A stretch of 33,192 nucleotides of DNA from a virus. Each line of letters starts with the position of its first letter. The first letter of the stretch is position 1. The position numbers and the translations under genes were made by a program. Shown piece after piece: positions 5,966 through 33,192 of this stretch. The notes beneath the pieces were generated by a model that did not search any database, had not been told where the DNA came from, and was given only the letters and a program-made list of their open reading frames with translations. The stretch lies in the IMG/VR virus record IMGVR_UViG_3300044639_000144, positions 1 to 33,192 of that record; one strand, written 5' to 3'.

Positions 5966-7000
5966 ATGGGTCAATTCAAGCCAATGGTCAAAATGATGAC
6001 CACAGAGCCTACGGTTGAGTTAAAGCTCAAAAAAGGCGGCGCTGTGAAAAAGGCTGACGGCGGAATGATGGCTATGCCATCTGCGATGTCTTCTATGCCT
6101 GCTCGCGGTGGCATGATGCCCGTAGCTCGTCCTAAGCGTCCTTCAATGGCAATGCGTCGTGCCGCTATGGCTGGTGCAACCATGAAGGATGGTGGCGAGT
6201 CTAAAGCTACGCACAAGGCTGAGATGTCGAAGATGAAGGGTCTTGAAAAAGAGCTGAAGTCTCACGAGTCCAAGCCTGCAAGCAAAGGCCATAAAGGTCT
6301 AGCTACTGGTGGCATTGCCAAGTCGACGAAGCCCGGCGGTTACGCCACAGGCGGCGTTGTCAATGGTCAAGGTGGTTACAAAAAGGGCGGTGCTATCGCC
6401 AGCGTGATTCCTGAGTCAGTATCTGCCAAGGGCGGAGAAGGCTACAAGAACACGAAGATGGTCACAGCCCATCCTGACAACAACAGCGCCCCAACAGGTG
6501 ATGTCAAGTTAGGTAATGGCGGTGGTTACAAAAAAGGCGGTGCAACAAAAAAGCACTACGCTACGGGGGGAGCTGTTAATAACAGCGGTCACGCCGTAGC
6601 AATGCCTGCGAAAAAGCCATCTGCTCCTGTCAGTAATGATCGTCAATCAGGCACCTTTAAAAAGGGTGGCAGTGTGACCCCAGCCCAGAAGAAAGAGCAA
6701 TCTGCCTTCAAGGCTGAGAACGCAACAGCGATGAAGCAAGCGAAAGCCCAGAGCAACCTGAAGTATCAAGATGGCGGGAAAGTAACTGACCTGTCCAAAG
6801 GCGCTTACGACAAATCGATTGGCCCATCTGAGAGTGATATGGACATGGCTAAAACCATCCGTAGCATTCCTAGCAAGCTGATGCAGGGTGCTAAGAGCTT
6901 GTTTACTAGCAAGGACAAGCCTTCTGGCTCTGTCACTAAGACTGAAAAGTCCGTGACTGTCACCCCTGCTAAGAAACGTGGTGGATCAGTAAAGTGCTGA
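5966..7000 (+). CDS. Lys/Gly-rich repeat protein, 344 aa, unknown function
   Basis: The product is strongly basic and low in complexity. Short units KKGG (for example LKLKKGGAVKK, GYKKGGAIA, GYKKGGATKK, TFKKGGSV) alternate with ATGG units (LATGGIA, YATGGVV, YATGGAV). A Met/Ala/Arg-rich stretch (MMAMPSAMSSMPARGGMM) lies near residues 32-50. There is no globular domain or membrane segment, and most of the chain should be disordered. A good SD (GAAGGAGCG) precedes the ATG. Proteins of this type are common between head genes of environmental phages; DNA condensation or a virion-internal role would fit the charge but is inference. A strong terminator follows directly. Confidence 0.7.
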   Translation: MGQFKPMVKMMTTEPTVELKLKKGGAVKKADGGMMAMPSAMSSMPARGGMMPVARPKRPSMAMRRAAMAGATMKDGGESKATHKAEMSKMKGLEKELKSHESKPASKGHKGLATGGIAKSTKPGGYATGGVVNGQGGYKKGGAIASVIPESVSAKGGEGYKNTKMVTAHPDNNSAPTGDVKLGNGGGYKKGGATKKHYATGGAVNNSGHAVAMPAKKPSAPVSNDRQSGTFKKGGSVTPAQKKEQSAFKAENATAMKQAKAQSNLKYQDGGKVTDLSKGAYDKSIGPSESDMDMAKTIRSIPSKLMQGAKSLFTSKDKPSGSVTKTEKSVTVTPAKKRGGSVKC

Positions 7001-11908: not shown

Positions 11909-12286
11909 ATGGCAAATCCTAATATTGTTAACGTCACTACCCTCACAGGTAACACGACATACCTCACACCAGCTAACACGACAGCTAACGTCTTGTTGTC
12001 AAACGCCGCATCTTCTGGTTTGGTCTTCAAGATCAATCAAATCGTGTGCGCTAATGTCAATGGTTCTAGTGCTGTGAATACCACCGTATCAATTGACAAC
12101 GCCGCCGCTGGCGCTGGTACAGACTTCCCAATTGTGTCTACGGTATCTGTTCCTGCTAGTGCATCTTTGATTGCTGTGGATAAAACCACTGCTATCTACT
12201 TGATGGAGAACTCATCCATTGTGGTGACTTCTGGCACAGCAAGCGGTATCACTTACACAATCAGCTACGAATCCATCGCGGCATAA
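11909..12286 (+). CDS. Small beta-rich structural protein, 125 aa
   Basis: The protein begins MANPNIVNVTTLTGNTTYLT and is rich in Thr, Val, Ser, Ala and Asn, with alternating polar and nonpolar residues consistent with a small beta sandwich. The segment LVFKINQIVCANVNGSSAVN and the C-terminal ITYTISYESIAA are reminiscent of small virion proteins found near fibres in aquatic phages. The SD AAGGAA lies upstream. Position between a tail-type protein and the first RCC1-repeat gene suggests a tail-surface role; the function is unknown. Confidence 0.6.
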   Translation: MANPNIVNVTTLTGNTTYLTPANTTANVLLSNAASSGLVFKINQIVCANVNGSSAVNTTVSIDNAAAGAGTDFPIVSTVSVPASASLIAVDKTTAIYLMENSSIVVTSGTASGITYTISYESIAA

Positions 12287-12298
12287 ACGGGGAGCAGT

Positions 12299-13438
12299 AT
12301 GTCTATAAGACAAATGTTTCCGGGGAGTATTGTTAAGCCGGGGTTCAATCCTCTGGGTACGCAAACTGGATTCTATACTTATGAACCCTATCTTTTTGCA
12401 TGGGGTACGGGTAGCTCTTATCAATTAGGACTTGGTAATAGCTCTAGTTATTCATCACCCAAGCAAGTTGGATTGTTAAGTAATTGGTCAGTTATTTCTA
12501 CTGGTGGAAATTTTACTGCCGCTATTAAATCTGACGGAACACTCTGGACATGGGGTTCACAATCTAGTGGTCAACTTGGACTTGGCAATAGAACTAATTA
12601 CTCTTCCCCAAAACAAGTTGGAGCTTTAACAAATTGGTCAAAAGTTCAAGCGTGTAATAATTTTTGTTTAGCTATCAAGACTGACGGAACTTTATGGTCT
12701 TGGGGTGCTAATAATCAAGGACGATTAGGTCTTTCGGTTGTTACTAACTACTCTAGTCCAAAACAGGTTGGATCATTGACCAACTGGCTATATATTGCAA
12801 ACTCTTATGATTGTGGAATTGCAATTAAAACAGATGGCACTTTGTGGGCTTGGGGTGGAAATTCTCTGGGGCAAGTAGGTGATGGCACGACAATTGCACG
12901 ATCTTCTCCAGTGCAAATTGGGGCTTTAACAAGTTGGGCAAGAGTTTACACAAATCCTAGACAATCAGTTTTAGCCATTAAAACTGATGGGACTTTATGG
13001 TCTTGGGGAAATAATGCAAATGGTCAACTTGGTTTAAATAATAGAACCAATTATTCCAGCCCAAAACAAATTGGAGCTTTGACTAATTGGTTAAATTTTG
13101 CTGGTGCTTATGGTGCTGTTATTGGTGTAAAAACAGATAACTCTCTTTGGTCATGGGGGCAAAATGGTAATGGTCAATTAGGTATTGGCAACACAACAAA
13201 GTATTCTTCACCCAAACAAGTTGGTTCTTTAACCAGTTGGCTTTCAGTAGCCGCTGGTTATTATTTTTGTCTTGCAACAAAAACAGATGGCACGCTTTGG
13301 TCTTGGGGTGTTAATTCTACAGGCCAACTTGGACTTGGTAACACAACTCAATACTCTTCTCCAAAGCAAGTTGGATCAGCAGTTAATTGGGTTGCAGTTG
13401 CCGCGCAAGGTGCAACTTCTTTTGGCACAAACTGGTAA
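12299..13438 (+). CDS. RCC1-type seven-blade propeller protein A1
   Basis: Seven consecutive units of about 50 residues follow the pattern LWSWG-x-N-x2-GQLG-x-GN-x-T-x-YSSPKQVG-x-LT-x-W, ending each time in AIKTDGT. Seven blades is the number in human RCC1. The 32-residue N-terminus begins MSIRQMFPGSIVKPGFNPLG; the core KPGFNPLG recurs in the protein at 16391, so it is probably a common attachment or cap element. GGGGAG lies before the ATG. Base composition is AT-rich: 22 of 60 bases are G or C in 12481-12540. Variable positions cluster after the Trp of each blade. In a phage tail region a surface-exposed propeller is most likely an adhesin or receptor-binding protein; that role is inference. 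Confidence 0.8.
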   Translation: MSIRQMFPGSIVKPGFNPLGTQTGFYTYEPYLFAWGTGSSYQLGLGNSSSYSSPKQVGLLSNWSVISTGGNFTAAIKSDGTLWTWGSQSSGQLGLGNRTNYSSPKQVGALTNWSKVQACNNFCLAIKTDGTLWSWGANNQGRLGLSVVTNYSSPKQVGSLTNWLYIANSYDCGIAIKTDGTLWAWGGNSLGQVGDGTTIARSSPVQIGALTSWARVYTNPRQSVLAIKTDGTLWSWGNNANGQLGLNNRTNYSSPKQIGALTNWLNFAGAYGAVIGVKTDNSLWSWGQNGNGQLGIGNTTKYSSPKQVGSLTSWLSVAAGYYFCLATKTDGTLWSWGVNSTGQLGLGNTTQYSSPKQVGSAVNWVAVAAQGATSFGTNW

Positions 13439-13464
13439 TGTCTAGAAAATTCTGAATAAATACT

Positions 13465-14622
13465 ATGCCAAGAACATTTACACCAACATCAGGCGTTCAA
13501 TACTCAGGCATCTGGACAATGCAACAGGTGAATGCCGCTATTGCGGCTGGAACTTGGACGGGTTTTCCAGAGTTATGGAGTTGGGGTTTAAATAACTTTG
13601 GGCAATTAGGATTAGGTAACGCAACAAGTTACTCATCCCCAAAACAAGTTGGAGCTTTGACTACATGGTTAAAAATTTCAGGGGGCTATACTTTTGGAAT
13701 AGCTATTAAAACTGATGGAACTTTATGGTCTTGGGGGCAAAATGCTTATGGACAACTAGGTGATGGAACAACAGCCAATAGATCATCTCCAGTACAAATT
13801 GGCGCATTAACCAGTTGGCTTTCGATTGCCTGTGGTGAATACCACACTTTAGCAGTTAAAACTGATGGTACTCTTTGGTCTTGGGGTGTTAATGATTATG
13901 GACAACTAGGAAAAAGTGACATTACTAACCGATCATCCCCAGTGCAAATTGGCGCGTTAACCACTTGGTATGATGTTGCAGGTGGTCGTCAGTTCTCTCT
14001 TGCCACAAAAACAAACGGTACTCTTTGGGCTTGGGGGCGCAACAGTGATGGGCAACTTGGTCTTAATAACAGAACATATTATTCTTCCCCAAGACAAGTT
14101 GGCTCATTAACTACATGGTCTAAAATTTCAGGTGGTTTGGGTAGTTTTACGGTAGCCACTAAAACGGATGGTACTCTTTGGACTTGGGGAGCTAATGGTT
14201 ATGGGCAACTAGGGCAAAATAATTTAACCTATCGTTCATCCCCAGTTCAAGTTGGCTCATTAACTACATGGTTAAATATTGCAAGTGGTCAATATCAAAC
14301 AATAGCCATTAAAACAGACGGCACTCTTTGGTCTTGGGGGCGCAACGGTAATGGTCAATTAGGGTTAAGTAACCTCACTGGTTATTCTTCGCCAAAGCAA
14401 GTAGGTGTTTCAACTAACTGGTCTAGTATTACCTGTGGTCAAACATATACAATGGCTATTACAACAAATGGTAATCTTTATTCTTGGGGTCAGAATACCA
14501 ATGGGCAACTAGGTTTAGGAAATGTAACAGATCAATCATCCCCAAGCCAAGTAGGAACATTATCTTCGTGGTCTAAGATTGCTGGCGCGGGACGGTCTTC
14601 AATAGCCATAAAAAGAACCTAA
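13465..14622 (+). CDS. RCC1-type seven-blade propeller protein B1
   Basis: Seven RCC1-like blades fill residues from about 35 to the end, the last being truncated after AIKRT. The N-terminus begins MPRTFTPTSGVQYSGIWTMQ; the part SGVQYSGIW is shared with the protein at 17522 and differs from the N-termini of the A-type genes. Three of its blades (2, 3 and 5) belong to a subtype reading RSSPVQ instead of YSSPKQ. No clear SD precedes the ATG, and the gene lies 26 bases after A1. Its stop overlaps the start of the next gene (TAATG). Probable tail-surface propeller; the function is inferred from context only. Confidence 0.8.
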   Translation: MPRTFTPTSGVQYSGIWTMQQVNAAIAAGTWTGFPELWSWGLNNFGQLGLGNATSYSSPKQVGALTTWLKISGGYTFGIAIKTDGTLWSWGQNAYGQLGDGTTANRSSPVQIGALTSWLSIACGEYHTLAVKTDGTLWSWGVNDYGQLGKSDITNRSSPVQIGALTTWYDVAGGRQFSLATKTNGTLWAWGRNSDGQLGLNNRTYYSSPRQVGSLTTWSKISGGLGSFTVATKTDGTLWTWGANGYGQLGQNNLTYRSSPVQVGSLTTWLNIASGQYQTIAIKTDGTLWSWGRNGNGQLGLSNLTGYSSPKQVGVSTNWSSITCGQTYTMAITTNGNLYSWGQNTNGQLGLGNVTDQSSPSQVGTLSSWSKIAGAGRSSIAIKRT

Positions 14623-16394
14623 TGAACAAAACACTGCACTTCCTCTCAGGTATTCCTCGTTCTGGCTCAACAGTCCTTGCGGCTATCTTGAACCAGAACC
14701 CAATGACCCATGTATCCACCACATCAGGGCTAGTTCACGCTCTTGATGGCTTAGCTAATACATGGCACTCAGCAGGTCTGTTGAACGACAACGACCCCAC
14801 CAGAGAGAAACTTGCACAAACAATGCGTGGTTGCATTGATGCGTTCTATGCTGATACTGATAAGCCTGTCATCATTGACAAGTCCCGTGGCTGGCCTATC
14901 CCCCAGATCATGGGCGCAATGGCTCAGGTGATTGGTCGTCCATGCAAGGTGATCGCTACAGTGCGTCCAGTACCTGACTGTATGGCTTCATTTGTTCGTG
15001 TGGCAAAGCCTGCTGATCTGGATGAGTTCATGTACTCAGGACAGTTAGCTGACCACCTGAAAGCCGCTTACCTGTCGTTAGAAGCAGGCTATGCCGCCAT
15101 GCCAGAGAATTTCTTGTTTGTTGTGTACGACAAGCTGTTGGCTGATCCCCGCGCAGAATTAGCCCGTATCCATGAGTTCTTGGAACTGCCTGAATACGAC
15201 TACGACTTCTCTAATATTGACGGCTCTTCAGTCAAAGAAGACGACGAGAACCTGCACGGCTACGCTGGTATGCATGATGTCAAACCAGTCTTGGCTAAGC
15301 AACATAACGATGTATCCAAAGACTTGCTCAAGCACCACTACAACCAGTTCTGCCAGCCAGAGTTCTGGGATGGTGGTAATCGCACGATGCCTGAATTGGA
15401 TGACCTTGATCTACAGGTCGCCGCAGGCAAGATGGGTGACTTTGCTGAAGGTTGGCGCTTGTCTGAGAAGCTCAACGCAGAGCGTCCTAACGACCACCGT
15501 GCCGCCTATAACCGCTCATGGTACTTGCTCAAACAGGGTCAGATTGGCGAAGGCTACAAGCAGATGGATCGCGGTCGTTACTGCGGGATCATCGGTGAAC
15601 GCCGCCCAGAAACACCAGCACCTGAGTGGGACGGTAAGACCAAAGGGACTATTCTCCTGTACTGCGACCACGGCTTGGGAGATCAGATTCACCAAGTGCG
15701 CTATGCCCGTGACCTAGTGGCTCGTGGCAACAAGGTTGTGGTCTGCTGTTCTGGCCCGTTGGCTGGTTTGTTCTCAGGCATAGAGGGTGTATCTGCTGTT
15801 GTTCAGGTTGGTGCTGAGTTTGGCGTGTTCCACGACTTCTGGTGCTATGGCATGACAGCCCCTAACTACCTTGGTTATGAGATGTCAGACCTGCGTGGTG
15901 ATCCTTATATTGCCAAGCCTACGACCATCAAAGGACGCAAGAAGCGCATCGGTATTCGCTGGCAAGGTAACTCGAAGTTTGAGGACGATCACAATAAGAA
16001 GTTTCCTTATGAAATGCTGTTCAACGCCATCAAAGATGCTGACGCAGAGTTCATTTCATTACAGCGTGATGAGGGTGCAAGTGCTTGCCCAGTATGGGTA
16101 AAACAAGTACCATTAAACACATGGGCAGACACCCAAGCGGCGGTTGCAAGTTGTGATCTGGTAATCTCTTCTTGCACATCGGTCAGCCATTTGGCGGCGG
16201 CTATGGGCGTTGAGACTTGGGTAGTGATTCCAGTGATGGGCTACTACCTGTATGCACTTGATGGCGACAAAACACCGTACTACGACACCATGACTTTATT
16301 CAGGCAAGAAGTATTTGGCGAATGGGAAGCTCCGTTTGAGAAGATCAAGGAGCGCCTGAACGCTAATCGTGCCGCACTGAGGAGCGTAGCGTGA
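14622..16394 (+). CDS. Sulfotransferase - TPR - GT9-like glycosyltransferase fusion
   Basis: Three parts are visible in 590 aa. Residues 1 to about 230 are a PAPS-dependent sulfotransferase domain: the 5'-phosphosulfate loop SGIPRSGSTVL (9-19) and a 3'-phosphate site RPVPDCMAS (115-123). Residues about 255-330 are TPR-like helices (AAGKMGDFAEGWRL, YNRSWYLLKQGQIGEGYKQM). From about 340 there is a GT-B domain of the GT9/TPR-glycosyltransferase kind: ILLYCDHGLGDQIHQVRYAR, the SCTSVSHLAAAMGVETWV nucleotide-sugar site, and LFRQ. GT9 includes ADP-heptose heptosyltransferases, which links it to the heptose genes at 21225-23419. It sits between the two RCC1 gene pairs and has ordinary GC content (30 of 60 in 15001-15060). 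Likely acceptors are host surface glycan or the phage's own virion; this cannot be told from sequence. Confidence 0.8.
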   Translation: MNKTLHFLSGIPRSGSTVLAAILNQNPMTHVSTTSGLVHALDGLANTWHSAGLLNDNDPTREKLAQTMRGCIDAFYADTDKPVIIDKSRGWPIPQIMGAMAQVIGRPCKVIATVRPVPDCMASFVRVAKPADLDEFMYSGQLADHLKAAYLSLEAGYAAMPENFLFVVYDKLLADPRAELARIHEFLELPEYDYDFSNIDGSSVKEDDENLHGYAGMHDVKPVLAKQHNDVSKDLLKHHYNQFCQPEFWDGGNRTMPELDDLDLQVAAGKMGDFAEGWRLSEKLNAERPNDHRAAYNRSWYLLKQGQIGEGYKQMDRGRYCGIIGERRPETPAPEWDGKTKGTILLYCDHGLGDQIHQVRYARDLVARGNKVVVCCSGPLAGLFSGIEGVSAVVQVGAEFGVFHDFWCYGMTAPNYLGYEMSDLRGDPYIAKPTTIKGRKKRIGIRWQGNSKFEDDHNKKFPYEMLFNAIKDADAEFISLQRDEGASACPVWVKQVPLNTWADTQAAVASCDLVISSCTSVSHLAAAMGVETWVVIPVMGYYLYALDGDKTPYYDTMTLFRQEVFGEWEAPFEKIKERLNANRAALRSVA

Positions 16395-17509
16395 GCTTTA
16401 GATATGGTTCTGGGATAAACAAGCCGGGGTTCAACCCGCTGGGTGCTCAGACGACTACAACTCAAGCTACTTTGTTTAGCTGGGGCTTGAATAGTGCAGG
16501 GCAACTAGGCTTAGGTAACATTACAAACTATTCTTCCCCCAAACAAGTTGGGGCATTAAATAATTGGTCTATGTTAGATGGCGGTAACAACTTTGCGGTT
16601 AGCATCAAAACCGATGGAACATTATGGACTTGGGGAGATAACGGACAAGGTCAACTAGGGCAAGGCAATACTACATACCGCTCATCTCCAGTTCAAGTAG
16701 GCGCTTTAACTACATGGTATAAGATTTCTGCTGGCGGCAGACATACAATAGCAATTAAAACCGATGGTACTTTATGGACATGGGGGGATAATGCCAGCGG
16801 TCGGTTAGGTTTAGGTAACATAACATATTATTCTAGTCCAAAGCAGGTAGGCGTTTTAACTACATGGGCATCAATTGCTGGTGGCGGCAGACATACAATA
16901 GCCGTTAAAACTGATGGCACTCTTTGGACTTGGGGAAATAACGCTCATGGACAACTTGGATTAGGTAATACCACTTCATACTCATCCCCAAAACAAGTAG
17001 GCGTTTTAACTGCTTGGTTAAATATTGCGGCGGGGTATTATTTTACGATAGCTGTTAAAACTGACGGTACTCTTTGGACTTGGGGAAATAATGCTCAAGG
17101 TCAATTAGGACAAGGTAATCTAACATATCGATCATCTCCAGTACAAGTTGGTGTTTTAACTGCTTGGTCTAAGATTTCTGGTGGCGCTTACCACACCATT
17201 TCAATTAAAACCGATGGCACTCTGTGGACTTGGGGAGATAACAGCTTTGGACAACTAGGATTAGGTAACATTACTTATTACTCTAGCCCAAAACAAGTTG
17301 GAGCTTTAACTAATTGGTCAAAAATTGCAGGGGGGCAATTTTATACAATAACTACAAAAACTGATGGCACTTTGTGGAGTTGGGGTAGGAACAGTAATGG
17401 TCAACTAGGTTTAGGTAATATTACTAATTATTCTTCTCCCAAGCAGGTTGGTTCATTAACTACATGGGGCGATGTAGCCGCTGAATACAATAGCACTCTT
17501 GCCACATAA
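16391..17509 (+). CDS. RCC1-type seven-blade propeller protein A2
   Basis: The start is GTG 16391, overlapping the upstream stop (GTGA). It is supported by the N-terminus MSFRYGSGINKPGFNPLGAQ, which aligns with that of the protein at 12299. Seven blades follow, with the most regular sequence of the four paralogues (LWTWGDN and LWTWGNN repeated, GRHTIA(I/V)KTDGT in blades 2 and 3). Blades 2 and 5 are of the RSSPVQ subtype. The last blade ends early (EYNSTLAT), as in the other family members. DNA is AT-rich relative to the fusion gene before it. Probably an adhesin or tail-surface propeller, by inference. Confidence 0.8.
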   Translation: MSFRYGSGINKPGFNPLGAQTTTTQATLFSWGLNSAGQLGLGNITNYSSPKQVGALNNWSMLDGGNNFAVSIKTDGTLWTWGDNGQGQLGQGNTTYRSSPVQVGALTTWYKISAGGRHTIAIKTDGTLWTWGDNASGRLGLGNITYYSSPKQVGVLTTWASIAGGGRHTIAVKTDGTLWTWGNNAHGQLGLGNTTSYSSPKQVGVLTAWLNIAAGYYFTIAVKTDGTLWTWGNNAQGQLGQGNLTYRSSPVQVGVLTAWSKISGGAYHTISIKTDGTLWTWGDNSFGQLGLGNITYYSSPKQVGALTNWSKIAGGQFYTITTKTDGTLWSWGRNSNGQLGLGNITNYSSPKQVGSLTTWGDVAAEYNSTLAT

Positions 17510-17521
17510 AAGAACAACATC

Positions 17522-18685
17522 ATGGCAACTACAACAATTAAATCAGGCGTTCAATACTCAGGTATATGGAACATCAGCAGTCAAGCCAATGCTAAGGGTG
17601 CTGGGACTTGGCCTATTGCTTTTAATCCTCAAGCTCTGTATAGCTGGGGTAGAAATAATAGGGGTCAATTGGGGCTTGGGAATACAACTTATTATTCATC
17701 TCCCAAACAAGTTGGAAGTTTAACTAATTGGTTAAAAATATCTAACGGAAATACTTTTGTAACTGCAATTAAAACGGATGGTACTTTGTGGTCATGGGGC
17801 AGAAATGTTTTTGGTCAACTTGGACTAGGAAATACTACTTATTACTCAAGTCCAAAACAAGTTGGAAGCCTTACTGCATGGAGTGATCTTGCTCTTAGCT
17901 CAGGGTCTAATTCTTCTTTTGCTATTAAAACAGATGGAACCCTGTGGTCTTGGGGATACAACTCAAATGGCGAATTAGGTCAAGGAAATTTGACTAGTTA
18001 CTCATCCCCTAAACAAGTTGGTACATTAACTAATTGGTCTAAAATAGCTTCTGGAACAAGTTTTGTTAGCGCCATTAAAACAGATGGTACGCTATGGGCT
18101 TGGGGATTGAATAGTAGCGGTCGGTTAGGGCTTGGTAATACCACCGATTATTCTTCCCCAAAACAAGTTGGCTCATTAACCGCTTGGTTGTATATTTCTT
18201 GTGGAAATAATTATTGTGTAGCCACTAAATCTGATGGAACAATTTGGTCTTGGGGTGATGGTACTTTTGGTCAACTGGGATTGGGAAATATAACTGCTTA
18301 CTCATCTCCAAAGCAAATAGGCGCACTAACTTCTTGGTCAAATACATCAAATACACAACTGCATACATTAGCTGTTAAAACCGATGGCGCATTATGGGCT
18401 TGGGGTAGAAACAATTTTGGTCAATTGGGTTTAGGTAACACCACTAATTATTCTTCACCCAAACAAGTCGGTGCTTTAACTACTTGGTTAAAAATATCCA
18501 CTGGAATTACTTTTAGTTCGGTAATTAAAACAGATGGAACCCTATGGAGTTGGGGATTAAATGATTATGGTCAATTAGGGCAAGGAAATATAACAAACAG
18601 ATCAAGTCCGGTGCAGGTTGGTGTGCTAACTAATTGGTTATCTACTTGTGCTGGCGGTTACCAAACTTTAGCAATTGCATCATAA
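17522..18685 (+). CDS. RCC1-type seven-blade propeller protein B2
   Basis: The N-terminus MATTTIKSGVQYSGIWNISS matches the SGVQYSGIW element of the protein at 13465. Seven blades follow; blade 2 carries a small insertion (LALSSGSNSSFAIK), blade 5 diverges (SNTSNTQLHTLAVK), and blade 7 is the only RSSPVQ subtype. The gene starts 12 bases after A2 without a clear SD, so it is probably coupled. The protein ends in the middle of the last blade (YQTLAIAS), a shared feature that lets the N-terminal segment complete the ring, as in Velcro-closed propellers; that closure is inferred. Confidence 0.8.
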   Translation: MATTTIKSGVQYSGIWNISSQANAKGAGTWPIAFNPQALYSWGRNNRGQLGLGNTTYYSSPKQVGSLTNWLKISNGNTFVTAIKTDGTLWSWGRNVFGQLGLGNTTYYSSPKQVGSLTAWSDLALSSGSNSSFAIKTDGTLWSWGYNSNGELGQGNLTSYSSPKQVGTLTNWSKIASGTSFVSAIKTDGTLWAWGLNSSGRLGLGNTTDYSSPKQVGSLTAWLYISCGNNYCVATKSDGTIWSWGDGTFGQLGLGNITAYSSPKQIGALTSWSNTSNTQLHTLAVKTDGALWAWGRNNFGQLGLGNTTNYSSPKQVGALTTWLKISTGITFSSVIKTDGTLWSWGLNDYGQLGQGNITNRSSPVQVGVLTNWLSTCAGGYQTLAIAS

Positions 18686-18764: not shown

Positions 18765-18771
18765 TGTGTGC

Positions 18772-19368
18772 ATGGACGCACACTTCTGTTACTACATTTA
18801 CGCTTATCTACGGGATGACTGGACTCCTTATTACATAGGTAAAGGGAAAGGCAGACGCTTTCGTGCCCCGCATAAAAAGAACATTGCCGTTCCCAAAGAT
18901 CGTACAAAAATTGTGTTGATGGAATTTAACTTGTCTGAAGTCGGTGCATTGGCGTTGGAGCGCAGATACATTGAGTGGTATGGCAGAAAAGATATTGGCA
19001 CTGGGATATTGAGAAATTTGACTGACGGCGGGGAAGGTCAGTCTGGGCGTGTTTTATCGGAAGACCACAAGGCAAAGATAAAAGCGGCAATGATTAAGAA
19101 TGCTTATTGGACAGGCAAGGTGGTTCCAGAAGATGTGCGGCAAAAGATGTCTGCTGGCAGAATTGGGATGAAACTGTCCGAAGAGCATAAAAACAACATT
19201 CGTCAGTCTTTGCTTGGTAAAATTAAATCTGAAGAAACAAGGTTGAAGTTAAGCCAAGCAAACAAAGGAAAGACAAGCAACCGCAAGGGTGTTAAAGTTT
19301 CCGATGAAACAAGACAACGGATGATTGAGGCTCGTAACAAAAGAGTTTTAAACACTGTAAATTTTTAA
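18772..19368 (+). CDS. GIY-YIG homing endonuclease with NUMOD3-type DNA-binding repeats
   Basis: I chose ATG 18772 ([13 protein letters not shown]); a GTG at 18766 is also in frame. The 198-aa protein has a GIY-YIG nuclease domain at residues 5-90: YYIYAYL, then [13 protein letters not shown], with conserved Tyr/Gly/Arg residues, and [11 protein letters not shown] supplying acidic and Tyr residues. The C-terminal half has repeated NUMOD3-like units ([59 protein letters not shown]) that would grip DNA along a target. Free-standing nucleases of this kind cut related genomes lacking the insertion and spread by gene conversion. Its stop lies in the T-rich stretch leading to the SD of the next gene. 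Confidence 0.9.
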
Positions 19369-19378
19369 GGAGTAAGTT

Positions 19379-19768
19379 ATGACACATTATGTCCAAGTAA
19401 TTGGGGGCGAAATTAAGCAAGTTTGGGACACACCTCCATCTGAAGGTGTTGGTAACAACGGCTGGCGTAACGCTGTCGAAGTTCGTCCTGCTATTCAAGC
19501 TGGTCGCCAAGGCTACACAGCCCACCGCTTTGACCTGAACACTGATCCAGTGCAGATCATCTGGGATACCTATGAGATTTCCGTGGATGACCGCAAAGGT
19601 GGCATGAAGTCCAACGCTGGCTTTGAGTTCCAAATGGTTGTGAACCAACAGGCTCGTGATCCTGCAACTTATGATGCCGCCGCCATTGAGACTGCTCGTC
19701 AGGCTATGGTTGCCAAGCAAGCCGCTATTGAAGCCTGCACTACGCACGACCAGTTAGACGCTCTGTAA
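19379..19768 (+). CDS. Conserved-type phage protein, 129 aa, possibly tail-fibre associated
   Basis: The protein begins MTHYVQVIGGEIKQVWDTPP and continues with a compact domain (GWRNAVEVRPAIQAGRQGY, then VQIIWDTYEISVDDRKGG). It ends in an Ala-rich helix (YDAAAIETARQAMVAKQAAI). This arrangement, a small N-terminal domain with a helical tail, is seen in tail fibre assembly and related proteins, but I cannot name a family. The SD AAGGAG lies upstream. Its likely homologue is the 16-codon stub at 18714, so it may be the replacement copy delivered with the endonuclease. Confidence 0.6.
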   Translation: MTHYVQVIGGEIKQVWDTPPSEGVGNNGWRNAVEVRPAIQAGRQGYTAHRFDLNTDPVQIIWDTYEISVDDRKGGMKSNAGFEFQMVVNQQARDPATYDAAAIETARQAMVAKQAAIEACTTHDQLDAL

Positions 19769-19864: not shown

Positions 19865-20446
19865 ATGAAGATCAACTTAGGTAGTGGCTATAAGCGTATT
19901 GACGGGTTCCTTAACATTGATGATGACCCGCTGGTTGAGCCAGATTTCCTTTGCAATATTGAGAGCGACAAGTTGCCCCTTGAGGACAACTCTGTTGACG
20001 AGATCCGTGCCCACCACATCCTAGAGCACATTGGGGACGGTTTCATTCCCCTGATGAAAGAGCTACACCGTGTATGCAAGCATGGTGCTTTGCTGGACAT
20101 TGTGGTTCCCCACCACTTCCACGACAACTTCTACGGCGATCCTACCCATAAGCGTCCCATCACTGTGAGCGGGATGTACATGTTCTCACGTAAGCACTGC
20201 GAAGAGCACCGTGATACTTACGGCTCAAGCTCTGGTATGGCTTTGAAGTACAACATTGACTTTGACATTGAGTCGTTTGACTTTGAGTACGACCCCTTTT
20301 ATCACGGACTGCTGGACATGATGAAGCAGAAGACCGAGAACGGCACATTGACGCATGACGAGAATCAGATGTTCAGGCGTTTAATGAGGGAAGCGAACAA
20401 TGTGGCGCTTCATACTTTAATCAAAATGAAAGCGGTGAAAGAATGA
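19865..20446 (+). CDS. SAM-dependent methyltransferase (class I, Methyltransf_11-like)
   Basis: The 193-aa product begins MKINLGSGYKRIDGFLNIDD, with the glycine-rich motif I (NLGSG) and an acidic residue after the second strand (NIDDDP). LPLEDNSVDEIRAHHILEHI is the motif around the methyl-transfer site, and LLDIVVPHHF is the following strand. Proteins starting like this are common among sugar-modifying methyltransferases in surface-polysaccharide loci. It heads a run of six overlapping genes for activated sugars and overlaps the next by four bases (ATGA), so methylation of a sugar or surface glycan is the likely job. The acceptor is not predictable. Confidence 0.75.
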   Translation: MKINLGSGYKRIDGFLNIDDDPLVEPDFLCNIESDKLPLEDNSVDEIRAHHILEHIGDGFIPLMKELHRVCKHGALLDIVVPHHFHDNFYGDPTHKRPITVSGMYMFSRKHCEEHRDTYGSSSGMALKYNIDFDIESFDFEYDPFYHGLLDMMKQKTENGTLTHDENQMFRRLMREANNVALHTLIKMKAVKE

Positions 20447-21228
20447 AAAGAATTCTAGTGATGGGGTTACCCGGTGCAGGCAAGACCACTTTAGCCCAGC
20501 ACATCCTTGAACACTTGCAAAACGAACGCAAGACGGTCATGTGGCTTAACGCCGATGATGTGCGCAAAAAGTACAACGACTGGGACTTCTCCCACGAAGG
20601 TCGTATTCGCCAAAGCTTGCGTATGCGCGAGTTGGCTGACAGCTACGATGTAGATTATGTGATCTGCGACTTTGTTGCCCCCTTGGTAGAGATGCGTAAC
20701 AACTTCAAGGCTGACTGGACTATCTGGGTTGATACGATTGACCAAGGTCGGTTTGAAGACACCAACAAGGTATTTATTCCTCCGAAGGAATATGATTTTA
20801 GGATCACCGAGCAGAAGTCTGAGCAGTGGGGTGAGTTTATTGCCGCGCACATCCTAGACGACCGCCGCCGCCCTTTGTTTGATTGGCAAAAAGAAACAGT
20901 CCAAATGCTTGGCAGATGGCAACCTTGGCACGCAGGACACCGCAAGTTGTTTGAGCGAGCACTGGCAAAGACTGGTCAGGTTGTGATTCAGATTAGGGAC
21001 TGTCAGGGCTGGAACGGATCTAACCCGTTTGCCGCCAATCAAGTCAAAGAGTTCATTAGCCGTGACTTAGACCCTCTGTACCAAGGTCAGTACGAGGTTC
21101 AATTGGTTCCCAACATTGTCAACATAACCTATGGTCGTGATGTTGGCTACAAGATTGAGCAGGAATCTTTTGATGACGCTACCCACGCTATCTCTGCTAC
21201 CAAGATACGCAAAGAGATGGGTGTGTGA
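20443..21228 (+). CDS. Bifunctional: APS-kinase-like P-loop kinase plus nucleotidyltransferase
   Basis: The 261-aa protein has two parts. The N-terminal part (1 to about 145) has a Walker A GLPGAGKTT (8-16), an LNADDVRKK segment, FSHEGRIRQSLRM and VICDFVAPLVEMRNN, and later KEYDFRI; this order fits adenylylsulfate kinases. The C-terminal part (about 155-261) has GRWQPWHAGHRKLFERAL with the HxGH at 163-166, YGRDVGY, and an ISATKIRKEM end motif, the signature of HxGH nucleotidyltransferases (NMNAT, PPAT and ATP sulfurylase types). Possible outputs are PAPS for the sulfotransferase at 14622, a nucleotide sugar, or NAD-type salvage. Motifs alone cannot decide. ATGA and GTGA overlaps on both sides indicate tight coupling. 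Confidence 0.75.
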   Translation: MKRILVMGLPGAGKTTLAQHILEHLQNERKTVMWLNADDVRKKYNDWDFSHEGRIRQSLRMRELADSYDVDYVICDFVAPLVEMRNNFKADWTIWVDTIDQGRFEDTNKVFIPPKEYDFRITEQKSEQWGEFIAAHILDDRRRPLFDWQKETVQMLGRWQPWHAGHRKLFERALAKTGQVVIQIRDCQGWNGSNPFAANQVKEFISRDLDPLYQGQYEVQLVPNIVNITYGRDVGYKIEQESFDDATHAISATKIRKEMGV

Positions 21229-21638
21229 TCGTTTTCACCAATGGGTGCTTTGACGTGCTCCATCGTGGGCACGTCGAGTACCTTAAACAGTCCCGTAAGC
21301 TAGGGAAAAAACTTATTGTGGGTCTGAACTCGGACGAGTCAGTAAAACGCCTCAAAGGCTTGAATAGACCCATCAATAACGAAGAAGATCGCAAGGCAGT
21401 TCTGTTGGCGCTGAGGTTTGTGGATGAGGTCATCATTTTTGATGATCCAACGCCGCTATCGTTAATTCAGGTACTGAGACCAGACATCATCACCAAGGGT
21501 GGAGACTACAAGCTAGAGCAGGTTGTGGGTTATACGTTTGTCAAACAGACAGTCATTATTCCGTTCTTGGACGGATATTCATCAACAAGGATTATCAATG
21601 AGACTATCAGGGATTGTGAAAAAGGGTTGGGGATCTGA
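21225..21638 (+). CDS. hldE (C-terminal domain type): D-glycero-beta-D-manno-heptose 1-phosphate adenylyltransferase (HldE C-domain type)
   Basis: The GTG start overlaps the upstream TGA. The 137-aa product is a stand-alone form of the HldE/RfaE2 domain: FTNGCFDVLHRGHVEYL contains the HxGH at 13-16, SDESVKRLKG follows at about residues 36-45, then the DVIIFDDPTP-like VDEVIIFDDPTP segment, DIITKGGDY and the YSSTRIIN end motif. The family transfers AMP from ATP onto heptose 1-phosphate to make ADP-heptose, the donor for the LPS inner core. Length is normal for the domain (about 130-160). The kinase domain sits two genes on, at 21948, so the fused HldE of many bacteria is here split. Related cytidylyltransferases for glycerol share the motif; the neighbours favour heptose. 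Confidence 0.85.
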   Translation: MIVFTNGCFDVLHRGHVEYLKQSRKLGKKLIVGLNSDESVKRLKGLNRPINNEEDRKAVLLALRFVDEVIIFDDPTPLSLIQVLRPDIITKGGDYKLEQVVGYTFVKQTVIIPFLDGYSSTRIINETIRDCEKGLGI

Positions 21639-21960
21639 GCTAATCTGGGCTACCAACGACAAATACTGCGGAAAACTGCTGACCTTTAAGCAAGGTGCTA
21701 AGTTTTCCATGCACTTTCATGCCGTCAAGGATGAGACTTGGCTTGTTCAAAGCGGTATGTTCAAGGTGATCTACATTGACACAAAGGATGCCAGCCACCA
21801 CGAGCAGGTATTGAACATTGGGGACAAGTGGCACAACCCACCACTCATGCCGCACCAGTTAGTTTGTTTAACAGCGGGTGCAATCATGGAGGTTTCTACG
21901 GCTGACTCCGTGGAAGACAATTACCGCGTTAAAGCTGGAGATAGTCAATGCGCATACTAG
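21598..21960 (+). CDS. Cupin protein, sugar-phosphate isomerase or binding type
   Basis: ATG 21598 (MRLSGIVKKGWGSELIW) is chosen because the homologous cupin block begins there. An earlier in-frame start would lie deep in the adenylyltransferase gene. The overlap with that gene is 41 bases. The 120-aa protein has one cupin barrel with ligands H39, H41, E46 (SMHFHAVKDETW) and H86 (MPHQL). This resembles the C-terminal cupin of mannose-6-phosphate isomerase and GDP-mannose pyrophosphorylase. Small cupins beside HldE-type genes are common. It might isomerise a sugar phosphate ahead of the kinase, but no substrate-specific residue is visible. Confidence 0.7.
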   Translation: MRLSGIVKKGWGSELIWATNDKYCGKLLTFKQGAKFSMHFHAVKDETWLVQSGMFKVIYIDTKDASHHEQVLNIGDKWHNPPLMPHQLVCLTAGAIMEVSTADSVEDNYRVKAGDSQCAY

Positions 21961-22661
21961 TGATTGGAGACGCCTGCATAGATGAGTACAGGTACGGTGA
22001 GATATTAAGGCTAAACCCTGAGTCTACTGCGCCGCTACTCAACTTTGAGAACAGCGAAGAGAAGATGGGCATGGCGTACAACGTGGCTCAGAACCTTGAA
22101 GCGTTTGGGGCAGAAGTTACGCTGTGTGTCAGTGATCAACTGTCCCGCAAGATCCGCTACATTGATCGTAGAACTGGGGAGCACCTTCTTCGGGTAGATC
22201 AGGACGTGGAAGCCCAGCCGTATGACTTTAGCACCACTTTGGAAGACTTTGATGCCATTGTGATCTCTGACTACAACAAGGGCTATGTTTGGGTTGAGAC
22301 AATCAAGGAGCTTAGGCATCAGTTCAAAGGAGCCATCTACATGGACACCAAGAAACGCGACTTGGCAGACTTCCCTGACATCTACATCAAGATCAACGAG
22401 AGGGAGATGTCTGAGTCCTACTCACTGCCTGATCCAGAACATCTGATTGTGACCCATGGCGCTAAGGGTTGTGAATACATGGACAACATGTACCGTGCCA
22501 AGCCTATTGAGGTAGTAGATGTCTGTGGGGCTGGAGACGTGTTCCTAGCCGCTATGGTGGTCAAGCACCTAGAGACTGGCGATATGAACATAGCCTTGCC
22601 GTTTGCCAACGAGAAGGCGGCAATATCTTGCCAAAGTTTGGGAGCTGTATGCGTATCTTAA
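21948..22661 (+). CDS. hldE (N-terminal domain type): Heptose 7-phosphate kinase-like, PfkB family (HldE N-domain type), compact
   Basis: The 237-aa product follows HldE kinase closely at the ends: VIGDACIDEYRYGEILRLNP at the N-terminus, a MAYNVAQNLEAFGAEVTL segment in place of the usual GGAANVA, ISDYNKGY, and VVDVCGAGDVFLAAM with the catalytic Asp 197. HldE kinase domains are about 310-330 aa. About 80 residues, mainly the region between VTL and the RVDQD segment, are missing, so the lid or substrate part is reduced. The reaction expected is phosphorylation of D-glycero-D-manno-heptose 7-phosphate at C1. It overlaps the cupin by 13 bases and the epimerase by 13. Activity should be treated as uncertain because of the deletion. 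Confidence 0.75.
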   Translation: MRILVIGDACIDEYRYGEILRLNPESTAPLLNFENSEEKMGMAYNVAQNLEAFGAEVTLCVSDQLSRKIRYIDRRTGEHLLRVDQDVEAQPYDFSTTLEDFDAIVISDYNKGYVWVETIKELRHQFKGAIYMDTKKRDLADFPDIYIKINEREMSESYSLPDPEHLIVTHGAKGCEYMDNMYRAKPIEVVDVCGAGDVFLAAMVVKHLETGDMNIALPFANEKAAISCQSLGAVCVS

Positions 22662-23419
22662 TTACAGGTTACAAAGGCTTTATTGGGCAGAACATGGTCA
22701 AAGCCTTGTCAGACCACGAGCTAGACCTGTGTGATTTGGGTGACGAGTATTCCCTCTACGGAATAGATCAAGTCATTCACCTTGGGGCGATCTCTGATAC
22801 CCGTTGTGATGATTGGTCAGCTCTACGCAAGCAAAACGTGGGTTATTCCATTACTTTGATGGAGCGGTGTCAGAAGTACAGCATACCTCTTCAGATAGCC
22901 TCATCTGCATCGGTCTATGGCCCCCACAACACGACGTTCAAGGAAACTGACCTCGTAGCACCAGCCAACCTTTACGCCAAGTCTAAGGCGTTTGTAGAGG
23001 GCTACTTTCACGACATGCGCCCAGAGTCCCCTGTTCAGATCTTTCGCTACTTCAACGTGTACGGCGACCACGAGGATCACAAGGGTGATCAGGCTTCACC
23101 GTTCCACAAGTTTCGAGAGCAGGCTAAGACTGGTGTGATCAAGATATTTGAGGGTAGCGATGAGTTTAAGAGGGACTTTATCCATGTGGATGAGGTGATC
23201 AGCATCCACAAGAAGTTCTTCAATGTGACAAAATCTGGTATTTGGAACGTGGGTACTGGAAAAGCAATATCATTCGCAGAGGTTGCCCACTTGGCAAGTA
23301 TTGAAATACCAGCGAAAATAGAAACAATTCCGATGCCCGAAGACCTAAAGTCTGGGTATCAAAAGTTTACCCAAGCCGATTTAACCAAGATCAAGGCAAC
23401 CCTGAAAAATGAGCGATGA
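22649..23419 (+). CDS. hldD: ADP-L-glycero-D-manno-heptose 6-epimerase (HldD-like)
   Basis: The start is ATG 22649 (MRILITGYKGFIG). The TTG at 22628 would extend further into the kinase gene. The 256-aa product is an extended short-chain dehydrogenase: a GYKGFIGQN nucleotide loop, SSASVYG with the catalytic Ser/Thr region, and YAKSK with the Tyr-Lys pair. A C-terminal half strongly recalls HldD: RYFNVYGDHEDHKGDQAS, FEGSDEFKRDFIHVDEV, GIWNVGTGKAISF and YQKFTQADL. HldD converts the ADP-D-D-heptose made by HldE into the L,D form used in LPS. Length is about 50 residues shorter than E. coli HldD (310 aa). It is the last gene of the sugar run and overlaps the lysis-region gene by 11 bases. Confidence 0.85.
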   Translation: MRILITGYKGFIGQNMVKALSDHELDLCDLGDEYSLYGIDQVIHLGAISDTRCDDWSALRKQNVGYSITLMERCQKYSIPLQIASSASVYGPHNTTFKETDLVAPANLYAKSKAFVEGYFHDMRPESPVQIFRYFNVYGDHEDHKGDQASPFHKFREQAKTGVIKIFEGSDEFKRDFIHVDEVISIHKKFFNVTKSGIWNVGTGKAISFAEVAHLASIEIPAKIETIPMPEDLKSGYQKFTQADLTKIKATLKNER

Positions 23420-32500: not shown

Positions 32501-33192
32501 CGGGAACTAGCACAGGAACTTCCACAGGCACTTCGACTGGAACTAGTACTGGGACGTCAACTGGTACATCAACTGGTACAAGTACAGGAACAAGTACTGG
32601 CACGTCCACAGGGACATCTACTGGCACTTCTACGGGAACATCTACGGGAACATCGACTGGTACATCGACTGGGACAAGCACTGGGACTTCAACTGGAACG
32701 TCTACGGGAACTAGTACAGGTACATCAACGGGTACAGGCACATCAACAGGGACTTCCACGGGTACATCAACGGGTACAAGTACAGGGACGTCTACAGGAA
32801 CTAGCACCTCTACTGGGACATCTACCAGTACTTCCACTGGTACAAGTACTTCTACGAGCACTGGAACCTCGACAAGCACATCTACCAGTACCTCAACCAG
32901 TACGTCAACTAGTACGTCTACCAGTACTTCCACAAGTACCTCTACCAGTACAGGTACAGGAACGGGTACGGGGATCAGTATTACAACGAGCACGCCGCCA
33001 CGTACGGCTTCTACATTTGTCGCTGGTACACCAGCTCAAGGTGGCAAAGGCAAACCAACCGAGTTCTTGAAGGAACAGCTTCTCAAGACTTACATGACCA
33101 AGGATAGCTTTAAGGATCCCTTGGCTCAATTTAATAAGGCTCGTAAAGAGCTTGCGAAGGATGAAATGATGCAACAAGGCGTAGACCCTCGT
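29560..33192 (+). CDS. Giant virion protein (at least 1,211 aa; 3' end outside window)
   Basis: ATG 29560 lies one base after the previous stop and the frame stays open to 33192. No SD is clear. Parts seen: residues about 55-100 and 660-706 are two copies of a small helical domain ending RATGTNLADVNSRY and RATGLSAAEVQTRY. Residues about 208-290 are Gly/Ala/Leu-rich (ISFATAGLAGPAGLNLGSTL). About 627-790 is Ala/Lys helical (KAAADKAAADKAAAEKAA). Residues 791-1138 contain only Thr, Ser and Gly. A basic helical part then follows (FLKEQLLKTYMTKDSFKD). By place after gp10 it may be an ejection (internal virion) or tail-tip protein. The Gly/Ala/Leu segment would suit membrane insertion, but no TM is certain. 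The function is not known. Confidence 0.7.
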   Translation, partial: MALTGSFRTGLEDTDDFGVGSTDTTATQGALSQASTNTGALQTATSTPPTVDQQIVDWLKANPTADDSAIGSAMNQFGWNPADISRATGTNLADVNSRYFGNLENQYGKLGALTGTTTTTEQGDQTNYNSTDLGGGWMAWEKPRDIIGYEGQGESATPILGEASLGGFAKRNPSGKATDFYDKSGTFLFTQKDVPLSKQVLSDLSPLISFATAGLAGPAGLNLGSTLGSSISGALDLGLSNAASSALGSGVLGGTLSGLTGGNPVLGALSAAAGASGNLPIGDTGLTLGNINTGAKLLSANDAASVFNILSSDKNISGLTGNLVGADTAATINQGLTISSIVSNLEAGNNGAALSSLASLAGSSDLKIAGAATSLIEAVNSNNPTNVGNALASLANATKAPKATAPTTTTTSGLDALTTSAGGTSTTTAGLTDRTQELYDYAISQGVSPEQASLFASSGGQGGLTQTVGPILLAGAALSPSTAAFVTAAHAGLAWLSSFWNPTSGVTANKPDAATISATVRLLQDDNMTNAQLKSAGISMSDEEFAILKAKAADPSSVEEIETVTITGERDKTQTVLTPAQQAEMDAIFAEDFAQYKATDTTLTNDGSSAYIASKRAGATDADALAAANLASGKAAADKAAADKAAAEKAAQANQVSDQAVKDFLAENPNLTDAEIASKMDEFKVSAEQMARATGLSAAEVQTRYDAAKAKVASDKILADAQTLAAKTAADKLVADKAAADAIALADATKNAKAIADALAAKEVADAAALKAAEAKAAADKLAAEEAANNTGTGTGTGTGTGTGTGTGTGTSTGTSTGTSTGTSTGTSTGTSTGTSTGTSTGTSTGTSTGTSTGTSTGTSTGTSTGTSTGTSTGTSTGTSTGTSTGTSTGTSTGTSTGTSTGTSTGTSTGTSTGTSTGTSTGTSTGTSTGTSTGTSTGTSTGTSTGTSTGTSTGTSTGTSTGTSTGTSTGTSTGTSTGTSTGTSTGTSTGTSTGTSTGTSTGTSTGTSTGTSTGTSTGTSTGTSTGTSTGTSTGTSTGTSTGTSTGTSTGTSTGTSTGTGTSTGTSTGTSTGTSTGTSTGTSTSTGTSTSTSTGTSTSTSTGTSTSTSTSTSTSTSTSTSTSTSTSTSTSTGTGTGTGISITTSTPPRTASTFVAGTPAQGGKGKPTEFLKEQLLKTYMTKDSFKDPLAQFNKARKELAKDEMMQQGVDPR
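31930..32973 (+). repeat. Thr/Ser/Gly tract, 348 codons, 12-base period
   Basis: Every second residue is Thr. The residue between is Gly in a first block (10 TG units), alternately Ser and Gly in the long central block (TSTG, 12 bases per unit), mostly Ser near 32800-32940, then Gly again. Thr, Gly and Ser codons of nearly all kinds are mixed, so the DNA is much less repetitive than the protein. The tract is one third of the visible gene and must be a long flexible or extended linker. Confidence 0.95.

Follow-up and report, generated by a model that had tools for sequence, protein, structure and literature searches.

In a freshwater-type phage, represented here by a 33,192-nucleotide stretch of DNA (the window), four RCC1 propeller genes are ordered around a sulfotransferase-glycosyltransferase gene as A-B-enzyme-A-B, and they probably constitute an exchangeable adhesin set of the virion, combining slot-specific anchors, seven-blade propellers, a pooled diversity and a linked modifying enzyme. 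All features of this block lie on the + strand. Its 5' border is a small conserved gene (11909..12286; 125 aa, without known family) that has no Pfam or PHROG match and a homologue in 56 of the 62 relatives whose upstream sequence reaches 1.5 kb or more. It is followed by propeller gene A1 (12299..13438; seven blades, anchor type A, MSIRQMFPGSIVKPGFNPLG), whose anchor (12299..12391) comprises the N-terminal 31 residues ahead of blade 1 and is slot-specific across phages, and by B1 (13465..14622; seven blades, anchor type B, SGVQYSGIWTMQQVNAAIAAGTW), whose anchor (13465..13572) consists of 36 N-terminal residues; it includes a short helix, and its first 12 residues are modelled with low confidence. 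The fusion gene (14622-16394) separates this pair from A2 (16391..17509; GTG start, seven blades, anchor type A, MSFRYGSGINKPGFNPLG; anchor of 27 N-terminal residues, 16391..16471) and B2 (17522..18685; seven blades, anchor type B, SGVQYSGIWNISSQANAKGAGTW; anchor of 38 N-terminal residues, 17522..17635). A NUMOD3/GIY-YIG-type homing endonuclease gene (18766..19368; PF07460, 9.8e-17) is inserted at the block end, and such genes occur in or at the block, at varying places, in 16 of 79 relatives, as counted after inspection and removal of false matches inside the enzyme gene. The 3' border is a second small conserved gene (19379..19768; 129 aa, without known family), present in each of the 40 relatives whose downstream sequence extends for 3 kb or more.

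The original prediction of seven RCC1 blades in each of the four open reading frames, 28 in total, was confirmed by PF00415, which matches seven stretches per frame with E-values across the four proteins of 1.5e-68 to 7.6e-86. A search of the whole record returned exactly 28 RCC1 repeats, all within these four genes and all above the curated cut-off, and no internal stops were found in the four frames. The blades are spaced by 50 aa, with exceptions of +1 or +2, and exactly seven are present in 570 of 572 complete homologous frames of 340-430 aa from the fetched contigs (a count that includes copies from overlapping loci), a regularity far beyond chance. Closure into a seven-blade ring, for which structure prediction had been proposed as the check, was found for B1, the one protein modelled of the four. 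Its AlphaFold2 model places 7 x 4 strands (28) in a closed ring (pLDDT 92, pTM 0.87), and fold comparison matches it to the RCC1-like domain of HERC2 (Z 54; Z 54.1 to 7q40), with an rmsd to an RCC1-like domain of 1.5 over 352 residues.

Anchor and propeller behave as separate modules. The N-termini from which an A-B/A-B pairing had been proposed read as described (the first and third genes carry KPGFNPLG, the second and fourth SGVQYSGIW), and the pairing stands for these N-termini, but the propeller bodies hold no trace of it. Across relatives, the N-terminal ~30 residues are 61-74% identical within the same slot (71% for the A1 anchor) and about 20% (19-21%) identical between A and B, whereas the propeller bodies are 57-59% identical in every comparison, with no slot signal. 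Both anchor types are without a match among known attachment domains. Identity between any two propellers is about 58%, also in cases where the genes next to them agree at 97%, and the propellers reach 52-66% in comparisons with relatives whose enzyme shows 95-97% identity. Among nine close relatives, fourfold-site identity is 38-43% in the propellers and 77% in the enzyme, compared with the 35% expected of unrelated codons, and the propeller synonymous sites are near saturation.

This divergence is accompanied by mosaic sharing between loci. In L238 and L241, A1 is 100% identical, B1 77% and the enzyme 95%, while the A2 gene of L177 is that of L238 (96%) and its B2 gene that of L241 (98%). 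The B2 propeller of L228 recurs in L255 behind a fused A+B anchor at 96% identity, blade-shifted sharing is seen in L080/L083, L230 and L069/L090, and RCC1 is replaced behind the same anchors by LamG (L039) or by a glycine-rich domain (L229 and L064). Because the anchors are slot-specific, the propellers lack a slot signal, the synonymous sites are nearly saturated and mosaic sharing reaches 100%, the propellers are best understood as units exchanged onto fixed anchors, and all four genes join a conserved anchor to a variable, exchanged binding part in the manner of receptor-binding proteins. It is very improbable that the propellers instead diverge in place by hypermutation, through strong positive selection or the action of a diversity-generating retroelement; the two short hypervariable patches in each blade, with their abundance of Y, N and S, would suit such a process, but synonymous sites have diverged as much as the protein, and a propeller gene compared between phages is identical or else fully diverged, in a mosaic pattern of sharing. 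A search of the window and of 15 related contigs, some of which are fragments, found no reverse transcriptase (PF00078), which disfavours a diversity-generating retroelement as the source of diversity. Recent blade shuffling was rejected as the main source, as shared segments with breakpoints inside both genes were seen in only 6 pairs among 366 genes (three of them blade-shifted); the nearest blade is only weakly tied to blade index (32% vs about 17%) or to slot (32%). The low GC of the RCC1 genes was also considered as a mark of recent import into the source phage, and this was rejected because in each of the 58 loci tested their GC3 falls below the enzyme's (0.30 against 0.55).

Most variable are two loops of each blade, both at the same end, where per-blade entropy reaches 2.8 bits (positions 6-9) and 3.0 bits (positions 37-41), compared with 1.0 and 0.7 in the loops at the other end; the assignment of these loops to a face rests on strand order, and loop variability of this kind may be common to RCC1 families at large, which limits the adhesin inference. 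Each protein would consist of a short slot-specific N-terminal anchor (A1, B1, A2 or B2), most likely docking it on the tail or on the neighbouring A/B partner, and a closed seven-blade propeller that would present its variable face, with two loops per blade, to the host surface. Propeller diversity would be old and maintained in a common pool, with whole propeller genes or domains swapped by recombination in conserved flanks (the 11909 gene, the enzyme gene, the 19379 gene and the anchor-coding 5' ends) and, at times, by blade-shifted exchange. The suggestion of a receptor-type set in a phage tail region gains from homologues that adjoin tail genes, from virion proteins in other phages and from the adhesin-like variation, and on this basis we infer a virion location in the source phage and a role in receptor binding. 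RCC1 proteins of the Vequintavirinae phage W70 and of phage GAP32, which carries a single RCC1 gene, were detected in virions by mass spectrometry (PMC11370258, PMC5259590); phrog_4219 includes the W70 proteins and is matched by those of the window as well. The virion RCC1 proteins of both phages are distant relatives of the block propellers. In PollyC, RCC1 is carried on a T7-fibre-like N-terminus (6.7e-5, just below the cut-off).

A role in ordering or condensing phage DNA has been suggested for RCC1 in phAPEC6 (PMC7247149), and the PHROG category 'DNA, RNA and nucleotide metabolism' and a name and fold in common with a chromatin protein speak for it. For the block it is extremely improbable, since such a role would not lead one to expect a position in the tail/fibre region, the same anchors bearing lectin-like or glycine-rich domains, or hypervariable loops at one end combined with whole-gene exchange.

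The complete block, from the 11909 gene through A, B, the enzyme, A and B to the 19379 gene, recurs in 32 distinct contigs with differing tail backgrounds, and reduced forms are found in further contigs; most loci were picked by similarity to the query. RCC1 homologues were found next to tail genes in many backgrounds. At least one RCC1 gene adjoins the enzyme in 79 of 79 enzyme loci. Of 78 loci located through RCC1 alone, 66 contain the enzyme as well, and the remaining 12 are for the most part truncated by contig ends. That a two-gene cassette was duplicated had been offered as the simplest history of the four genes, but as a recent private event such a duplication is contradicted by the order common to the 32 contigs; the propellers have been replaced since the duplication, which therefore survives only in the anchors. 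Nor is the enzyme a bystander between two pairs, as it had been taken to be, because its gene is, of all those in the block, the most constant and is accompanied by genes for PAPS supply and, in some cases, for ADP-heptose supply. Matches in genome bins of Betaproteobacteria, Phycisphaerales, Methylobacter and others do not point to a host, since they may be mis-binned phage contigs.

The earlier label of a sulfotransferase-glycosyltransferase is upheld by a PF13469 match and by the predicted GT-B/GT9-like fold of the C-terminal half. The sulfotransferase domain (14622..15395; residues 1-258; PF13469, 6.3e-14) has as its closest fold tyrosylprotein sulfotransferase 1/2 (Z 19.4, rmsd 3.5 over 237 residues, predicted model), and its PRSGST PAPS loop and 3'-phosphate site (R115/S123) are conserved in 29 aligned homologues, one of them N-terminally short; family match, PAPS loop and 3'-phosphate site together mark a putative PAPS-dependent sulfotransferase. 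A TPR-like linker (15396..15593; residues 259-324), which matches the TPR part of AspH over 66 residues (Z 11.5), leads to the glycosyltransferase domain (15645..16382; residues 342-587). This half has no Pfam sequence match; its predicted model adopts a GT-B fold of the GT9 type (Z 15-16 to WaaC, WaaF, TibC and the GT9 enzyme 3tov), and its GLGDQIHQ and CTSVSHL motifs are conserved among homologues. The bacterial autotransporter heptosyltransferase (BAHT) family is defined by an iron finger of four cysteines (Cys-339, 342, 358 and 370 in TibC; PMC4358343). Only three cysteines, one within the sulfotransferase half, are invariant among the 29 homologues, and the TibC-type four-cysteine finger that would place the enzyme in this family is absent from them. 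The fusion enzyme resembles a tyrosylprotein sulfotransferase joined to an ADP-heptosyltransferase.

Candidate donor-supply genes lie downstream. An APS-kinase-like domain, for the sulfate donor PAPS, is fused to an adenylyltransferase-like domain (20443..21228; PF01583, 1.2e-10); the APS-kinase half is matched in 54 of 54 homologues of this gene. Three further genes resemble heptose-1-phosphate adenylyltransferase (HldE domain II-like, 21225..21638; TIGR02199, 1.1e-51, just under the curated cut-off), a shortened heptose-7-phosphate kinase (HldE domain I-like, 21948..22661; TIGR02198, 3.2e-31, below cut-off) and ADP-heptose 6-epimerase (HldD-like, 22628..23419; TIGR02197, 8.2e-61, below cut-off). 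Of 40 relatives, 37 have an APS-kinase homologue downstream and 14 have ADP-heptose genes, which suggests sulfo-/heptosyl modification of a putative target. The case for ADP-heptose use by the glycosyltransferase domain, from the HldE-/HldD-like genes of the window with counterparts in only those 14 relatives, is circumstantial. The enzyme, TPST-like, TPR and ADP-heptosyltransferase-like in turn, would work with phage-encoded PAPS and, in some phages, ADP-heptose, and most likely modifies the propellers or another adsorption partner.

Tentatively, the enzyme may modify the adjacent propellers by O-heptosylation and/or O-sulfation, much as autotransporter adhesins are heptosylated by TibC, a reading that extends the adhesin set rather than opposing it. 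The reciprocal linkage of enzyme and RCC1 genes points this way, as do the donor genes, closest folds that modify proteins (tyrosylprotein sulfotransferase, and GT9 enzymes including TibC), and the arrangement in cyanomyophage S-SRM01 and marine virus AG-345-E08, where separate glycosyltransferase-like and sulfotransferase genes adjoin RCC1 genes. However, no acceptor site was found in the propellers, and the iron-finger cysteines are missing. Blade Tyr 20 (N-x-T-x-Y-S-S-P; 78% Tyr at this position) was rejected as a general sulfation site, being Arg or Lys in the enzyme-bearing L260, L262 and BUCT-ZZ01. The LPS heptosyltransferases WaaC and WaaF, moreover, match as well as TibC, and a case can be made, with similar reserve, for modification of a host or secreted surface glycan, in receptor masking or superinfection exclusion, the enzyme being linked to the adhesins merely via a host-range module. 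A distant homologue in L261 lies with GT2, a methyltransferase domain and APS kinase but without RCC1, and cyanophage S-SKS1 matches the sulfotransferase half yet is not among the RCC1 matches. Action on a glycan sits less easily with a sulfotransferase whose closest fold is protein-modifying and with an enzyme that, in the block's phage group, always adjoins the propellers, inside the adhesin run and across differing backgrounds. It is conceivable, if rather unlikely, that the phage makes its own PAPS and ADP-heptose and that the enzyme decorates the constant scaffold of the four interchangeable propellers with both sulfate and heptose; if so, a common pool of binding rings would be modified alike on all block-bearing phages.

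Under the adhesin reading, phage RCC1 genes, for which 'regulator of chromosome condensation' or DNA condensation is the usual annotation, acquire a definite role that can be tested, as exchangeable adhesins. Their clean anchor/binding-domain architecture, with four slots served by one pool of seven-blade rings, makes the block a scaffold library of natural origin whose variable loops lie at one end, and the fusion enzyme and donor-supply genes raise the question of whether glycosylation and sulfation of receptor-binding proteins can be carried out by the phage itself.

The description of RCC1 as best known from eukaryotes and scattered bacteria proved incomplete, as the jumbo coliphages PBECO4, 121Q and phAPEC6 are already known to carry, like the block, several adjacent genes with one RCC1 domain each. 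The combination of such arrays with an A-B-enzyme-A-B block was not found described, and no paper was found that joins phage, ADP-heptose and sulfotransferase, considers ADP-heptose as a phage auxiliary metabolic gene or treats RCC1 as a phage receptor-binding protein. Unlike the block, PBECO4 has no linked sulfotransferase-glycosyltransferase annotated in the stretch examined, and the jumbo coliphage and W70 RCC1 proteins are sequence-distant (32% for PBECO4), with no A/B anchor pairs reported. S-SRM01, AG-345-E08 and BUCT-ZZ01, of which the first and last are available as isolates, have RCC1 near tail-fibre genes together with a sulfotransferase and/or glycosyltransferase homologous to the fusion halves; their clusters include a TPR-GT, and AG-345-E08 also has a PfkB-type sugar kinase. 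They differ in phage type and lack the A-B-enzyme-A-B order, and in S-SRM01 and AG-345-E08 the two activities are in separate genes rather than fused. TibC/AAH (BAHT) systems share with the block a GT-B/GT9-type fold, an adjacent adhesin-like repeat gene and ADP-heptose as the likely donor, though the block enzyme, of putative activity, has no four-cysteine iron finger and is fused to a sulfotransferase. TPST1/2, the closest fold to residues 1-258, is 14-18% identical to an enzyme that is, in contrast, bacteriophage-borne and fused to TPR and glycosyltransferase domains. Phage tail-fibre tips and adhesins, such as the glycine-rich gp38 adhesins of T-even phages, likewise combine a conserved anchor with an exchangeable variable tip at a recombination hot spot; in the block the tip is a seven-blade propeller, and four such slots stand in parallel, the putative modifying enzyme lying between them.

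The RCC1 genes of the window, all on the plus strand, are termed A1 (12299-13438), B1 (13465-14622), A2 (16391-17509), and B2 (17522-18685), and a sulfotransferase-glycosyltransferase gene (14622-16394, hereafter the enzyme) lies between A1-B1 and A2-B2. A repeat search bore out the original observation of four ORFs at these places with exactly seven RCC1 repeats apiece; the 28 repeats of the whole 33 kb record all fall inside these genes, and among 572 homologous ORFs that are complete, counting redundant copies, 570 have exactly seven blades. The closed seven-blade ring was recovered by structure prediction, the B1 model closing with high confidence (pLDDT 92, pTM 0.87) into a propeller with 28 strands; among solved structures it is nearest to RCC1-like domains (HERC2 RLD2; Z 54, rmsd 1.5, 352 residues). 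Residues 1-12 of the model are not confidently placed and a short helix occupies residues 19-27, features that a docking tail would be expected to show. Elsewhere in the window, a Lys/Gly-rich repeat protein with KKGG motifs is encoded at 5966-7000, and at 29560-33192 an open-ended ORF (1211 aa or more) contains a long T-G-T-S repeat run; the antisense VPV ORF overlapping the latter (31533-32993) is probably its mirror image and no gene.

The block is real and widely conserved. Searching IMG/VR with the enzyme yielded 80 loci, 79 of them assignable, and at least one RCC1 gene adjoins the enzyme in all 79; two stand on each side in 34 loci (32 without repeats), contig ends not being allowed for in this count. 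Of the 78 loci from an RCC1-only search, 66 hold the enzyme and most of the remainder stop at a contig edge; the locus lists from both searches are biased to close relatives. The order is constant in phages with differing other tail genes: a small conserved gene of no known family (the 11909-gene), A, B, enzyme, A, B, and a second such gene (the 19379-gene).

Each protein comprises a slot-specific N-terminal anchor of roughly 30 residues, of type A or B, followed by the propeller. The pairing of the N-termini as A-B and A-B is real: across 32 full blocks, N-terminal identity is 61-74% within a slot, 54% between A1 and A2, 50% between B1 and B2, and about 20% between A and B. Propeller bodies, in contrast, are 57-59% identical throughout, whether from the same slot, another slot, another phage, or within one genome. 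The duplicated pair originally proposed is therefore visible in the anchors only, any two propellers being equally related. In loci with a single RCC1 gene per side, the two anchor types are joined within a single protein (for example MSERYTGAWLQDGAFNPL...YIQYGGVWTTSQAADAVASGTW in L221), which suggests that A and B share one site of action in the virion.

In relatives with 95-97% enzyme identity, the propellers match those of the window at 52-66%, which is no closer than the match with distant phages. DNA identity, about 90% within the enzyme gene, drops to about 60% at each of its borders. Had the propellers changed in place by fast adaptation, their synonymous sites should resemble those of neighbouring genes, a reading that is disfavoured: at fourfold sites among nine close relatives, propeller genes are 38-43% identical, close to the 35% expected for unrelated codons, whereas the enzyme gene and 19379-gene are 77-78% identical. 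Replacement by old alleles accounts for such saturation. Loci L238 and L241 share A1 (100%) but differ in B1 (77%), A2, and B2; L177 is a mosaic with the A2 of L238 (96%) and the B2 of L241 (98%); L255 carries the B2 propeller of L228 (96%) behind a fused anchor; and blade-register-shifted segments are common to a few propeller genes. By these sequence comparisons, the propellers are both hypervariable and subject to exchange. The 16 records searched yielded no reverse transcriptase. GIY-YIG/NUMOD3 homing-endonuclease genes lie in or beside the block, at several places, in 16 of 79 loci, including the window (18766-19368), and could promote propeller exchange. GC3 of the RCC1 genes is below that of the enzyme gene in all 58 loci with RCC1 on both sides (means 0.30 and 0.55).

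Per-position variability among 896 standard-length blades is highest at positions 6, 8, 9, and 39-43 (2.7-3.7 bits), while GQLG, SSPKQVG, LTxW, and KTDGTLWxWG are near-constant. In the B1 model, positions 6-19 form the strand 1-2 loop and 38-40 the strand 3-4 loop, the other two loops (26-31 and 47-50) being conserved. Because an antiparallel four-stranded blade places loops 1-2 and 3-4 at one end and the other two opposite, the variable loops of the seven blades should form one face, as deduced from strand order rather than coordinates.

Anchors also carry other domains. In the B2 slot of L039, a LamG/concanavalin-like domain (PF13385, 8e-11) comes after the B anchor, and glycine-rich domains (PF21722) follow RCC1-type N-termini in L229 A1 and one L064 gene; lectin-like and glycine-rich domains are common parts of phage adhesins. 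In phage PollyC, a T7-fibre-like N-terminus (6.7e-5, slightly below the curated cut-off) precedes RCC1 repeats. Mass spectrometry of purified virions detected three RCC1 proteins of phage W70 (PMC11370258) and GAP_001 of GAP32 (PMC5259590), and the W70 proteins belong to phrog_4219, which window proteins match too. The PHROGs matched by the four window proteins (phrog_4219, phrog_7220, and phrog_16766) carry the category 'DNA, RNA and nucleotide metabolism', which is likely misleading, since phrog_4219 includes virion proteins of W70. A role in ordering DNA was proposed for the eleven RCC1-like proteins of phage phAPEC6 (PMC7247149), and PBECO4 has ten RCC1 genes side by side.

The original naming of the enzyme is upheld at the level of domains, by a Pfam domain for the putative sulfotransferase and by an ADP-heptosyltransferase-like predicted fold for the putative glycosyltransferase. 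In an AlphaFold2 model (pLDDT 87), residues 1-258 match tyrosylprotein sulfotransferases (Z 19.4; other sulfotransferases 16 and below), residues 259-324 a TPR segment, and residues 342-587 the ADP-heptosyltransferases WaaC, WaaF, and TibC (Z 15-16). At the sequence level, a 29-homologue profile also reaches tyrosylprotein sulfotransferases (2.3e-6), a polyketide-synthase sulfotransferase domain scoring slightly higher. An APS-kinase-like gene lies 3' of the block in 37 of 40 loci having enough sequence, which fits PAPS supply; that of the window (20443-21228) is fused to an adenylyltransferase-like (NMN-adenylyltransferase-type) domain, and its shorter relatives have the kinase half only. Genes for an HldE-like kinase and adenylyltransferase and an HldD-like epimerase, scoring below NCBI cut-offs, lie downstream in the window and 14 of 40 loci and fit ADP-heptose supply; in the window they occupy 21225-23419 with a cupin gene, the HldE-like functions being split between genes and the kinase shortened, and neither GmhA nor GmhB was noticed in the window beside them. 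Modification of the propellers is attractive, with TPST and TibC (PMC4358343) as protein-target precedents, but somewhat doubtful, as none of the sites considered could be singled out as acceptor and the enzyme lacks the iron-finger cysteines of TibC. The fold is equally compatible with WaaC-like action on LPS, and modification of a host glycan is proposed just as tentatively.

The preferred reading of the block is that its four propellers are adhesins forming one exchangeable set, to which a putative modifying enzyme is linked. Sulfotransferase and TPR-GT homologues of the enzyme halves adjoin RCC1 genes in cyanomyophage S-SRM01 and marine virus AG-345-E08, though as separate genes rather than the fusion of the window. 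In the isolated phage BUCT-ZZ01, one gene of 700 aa encodes 14 RCC1 blades (L264:6131-8233) and is followed by a 34% homologue of the C-terminal half. On a contig binned as Woesearchaeota, an enzyme homologue is fused to a methyltransferase and accompanied by GT2 and APS kinase, without RCC1 (L261:4664-9077). RCC1 arrays in phages are already known, whereas neither the exchange of propellers on anchors in four slots nor the fused sulfotransferase-heptosyltransferase-like enzyme appears to have been described in the literature searched here.
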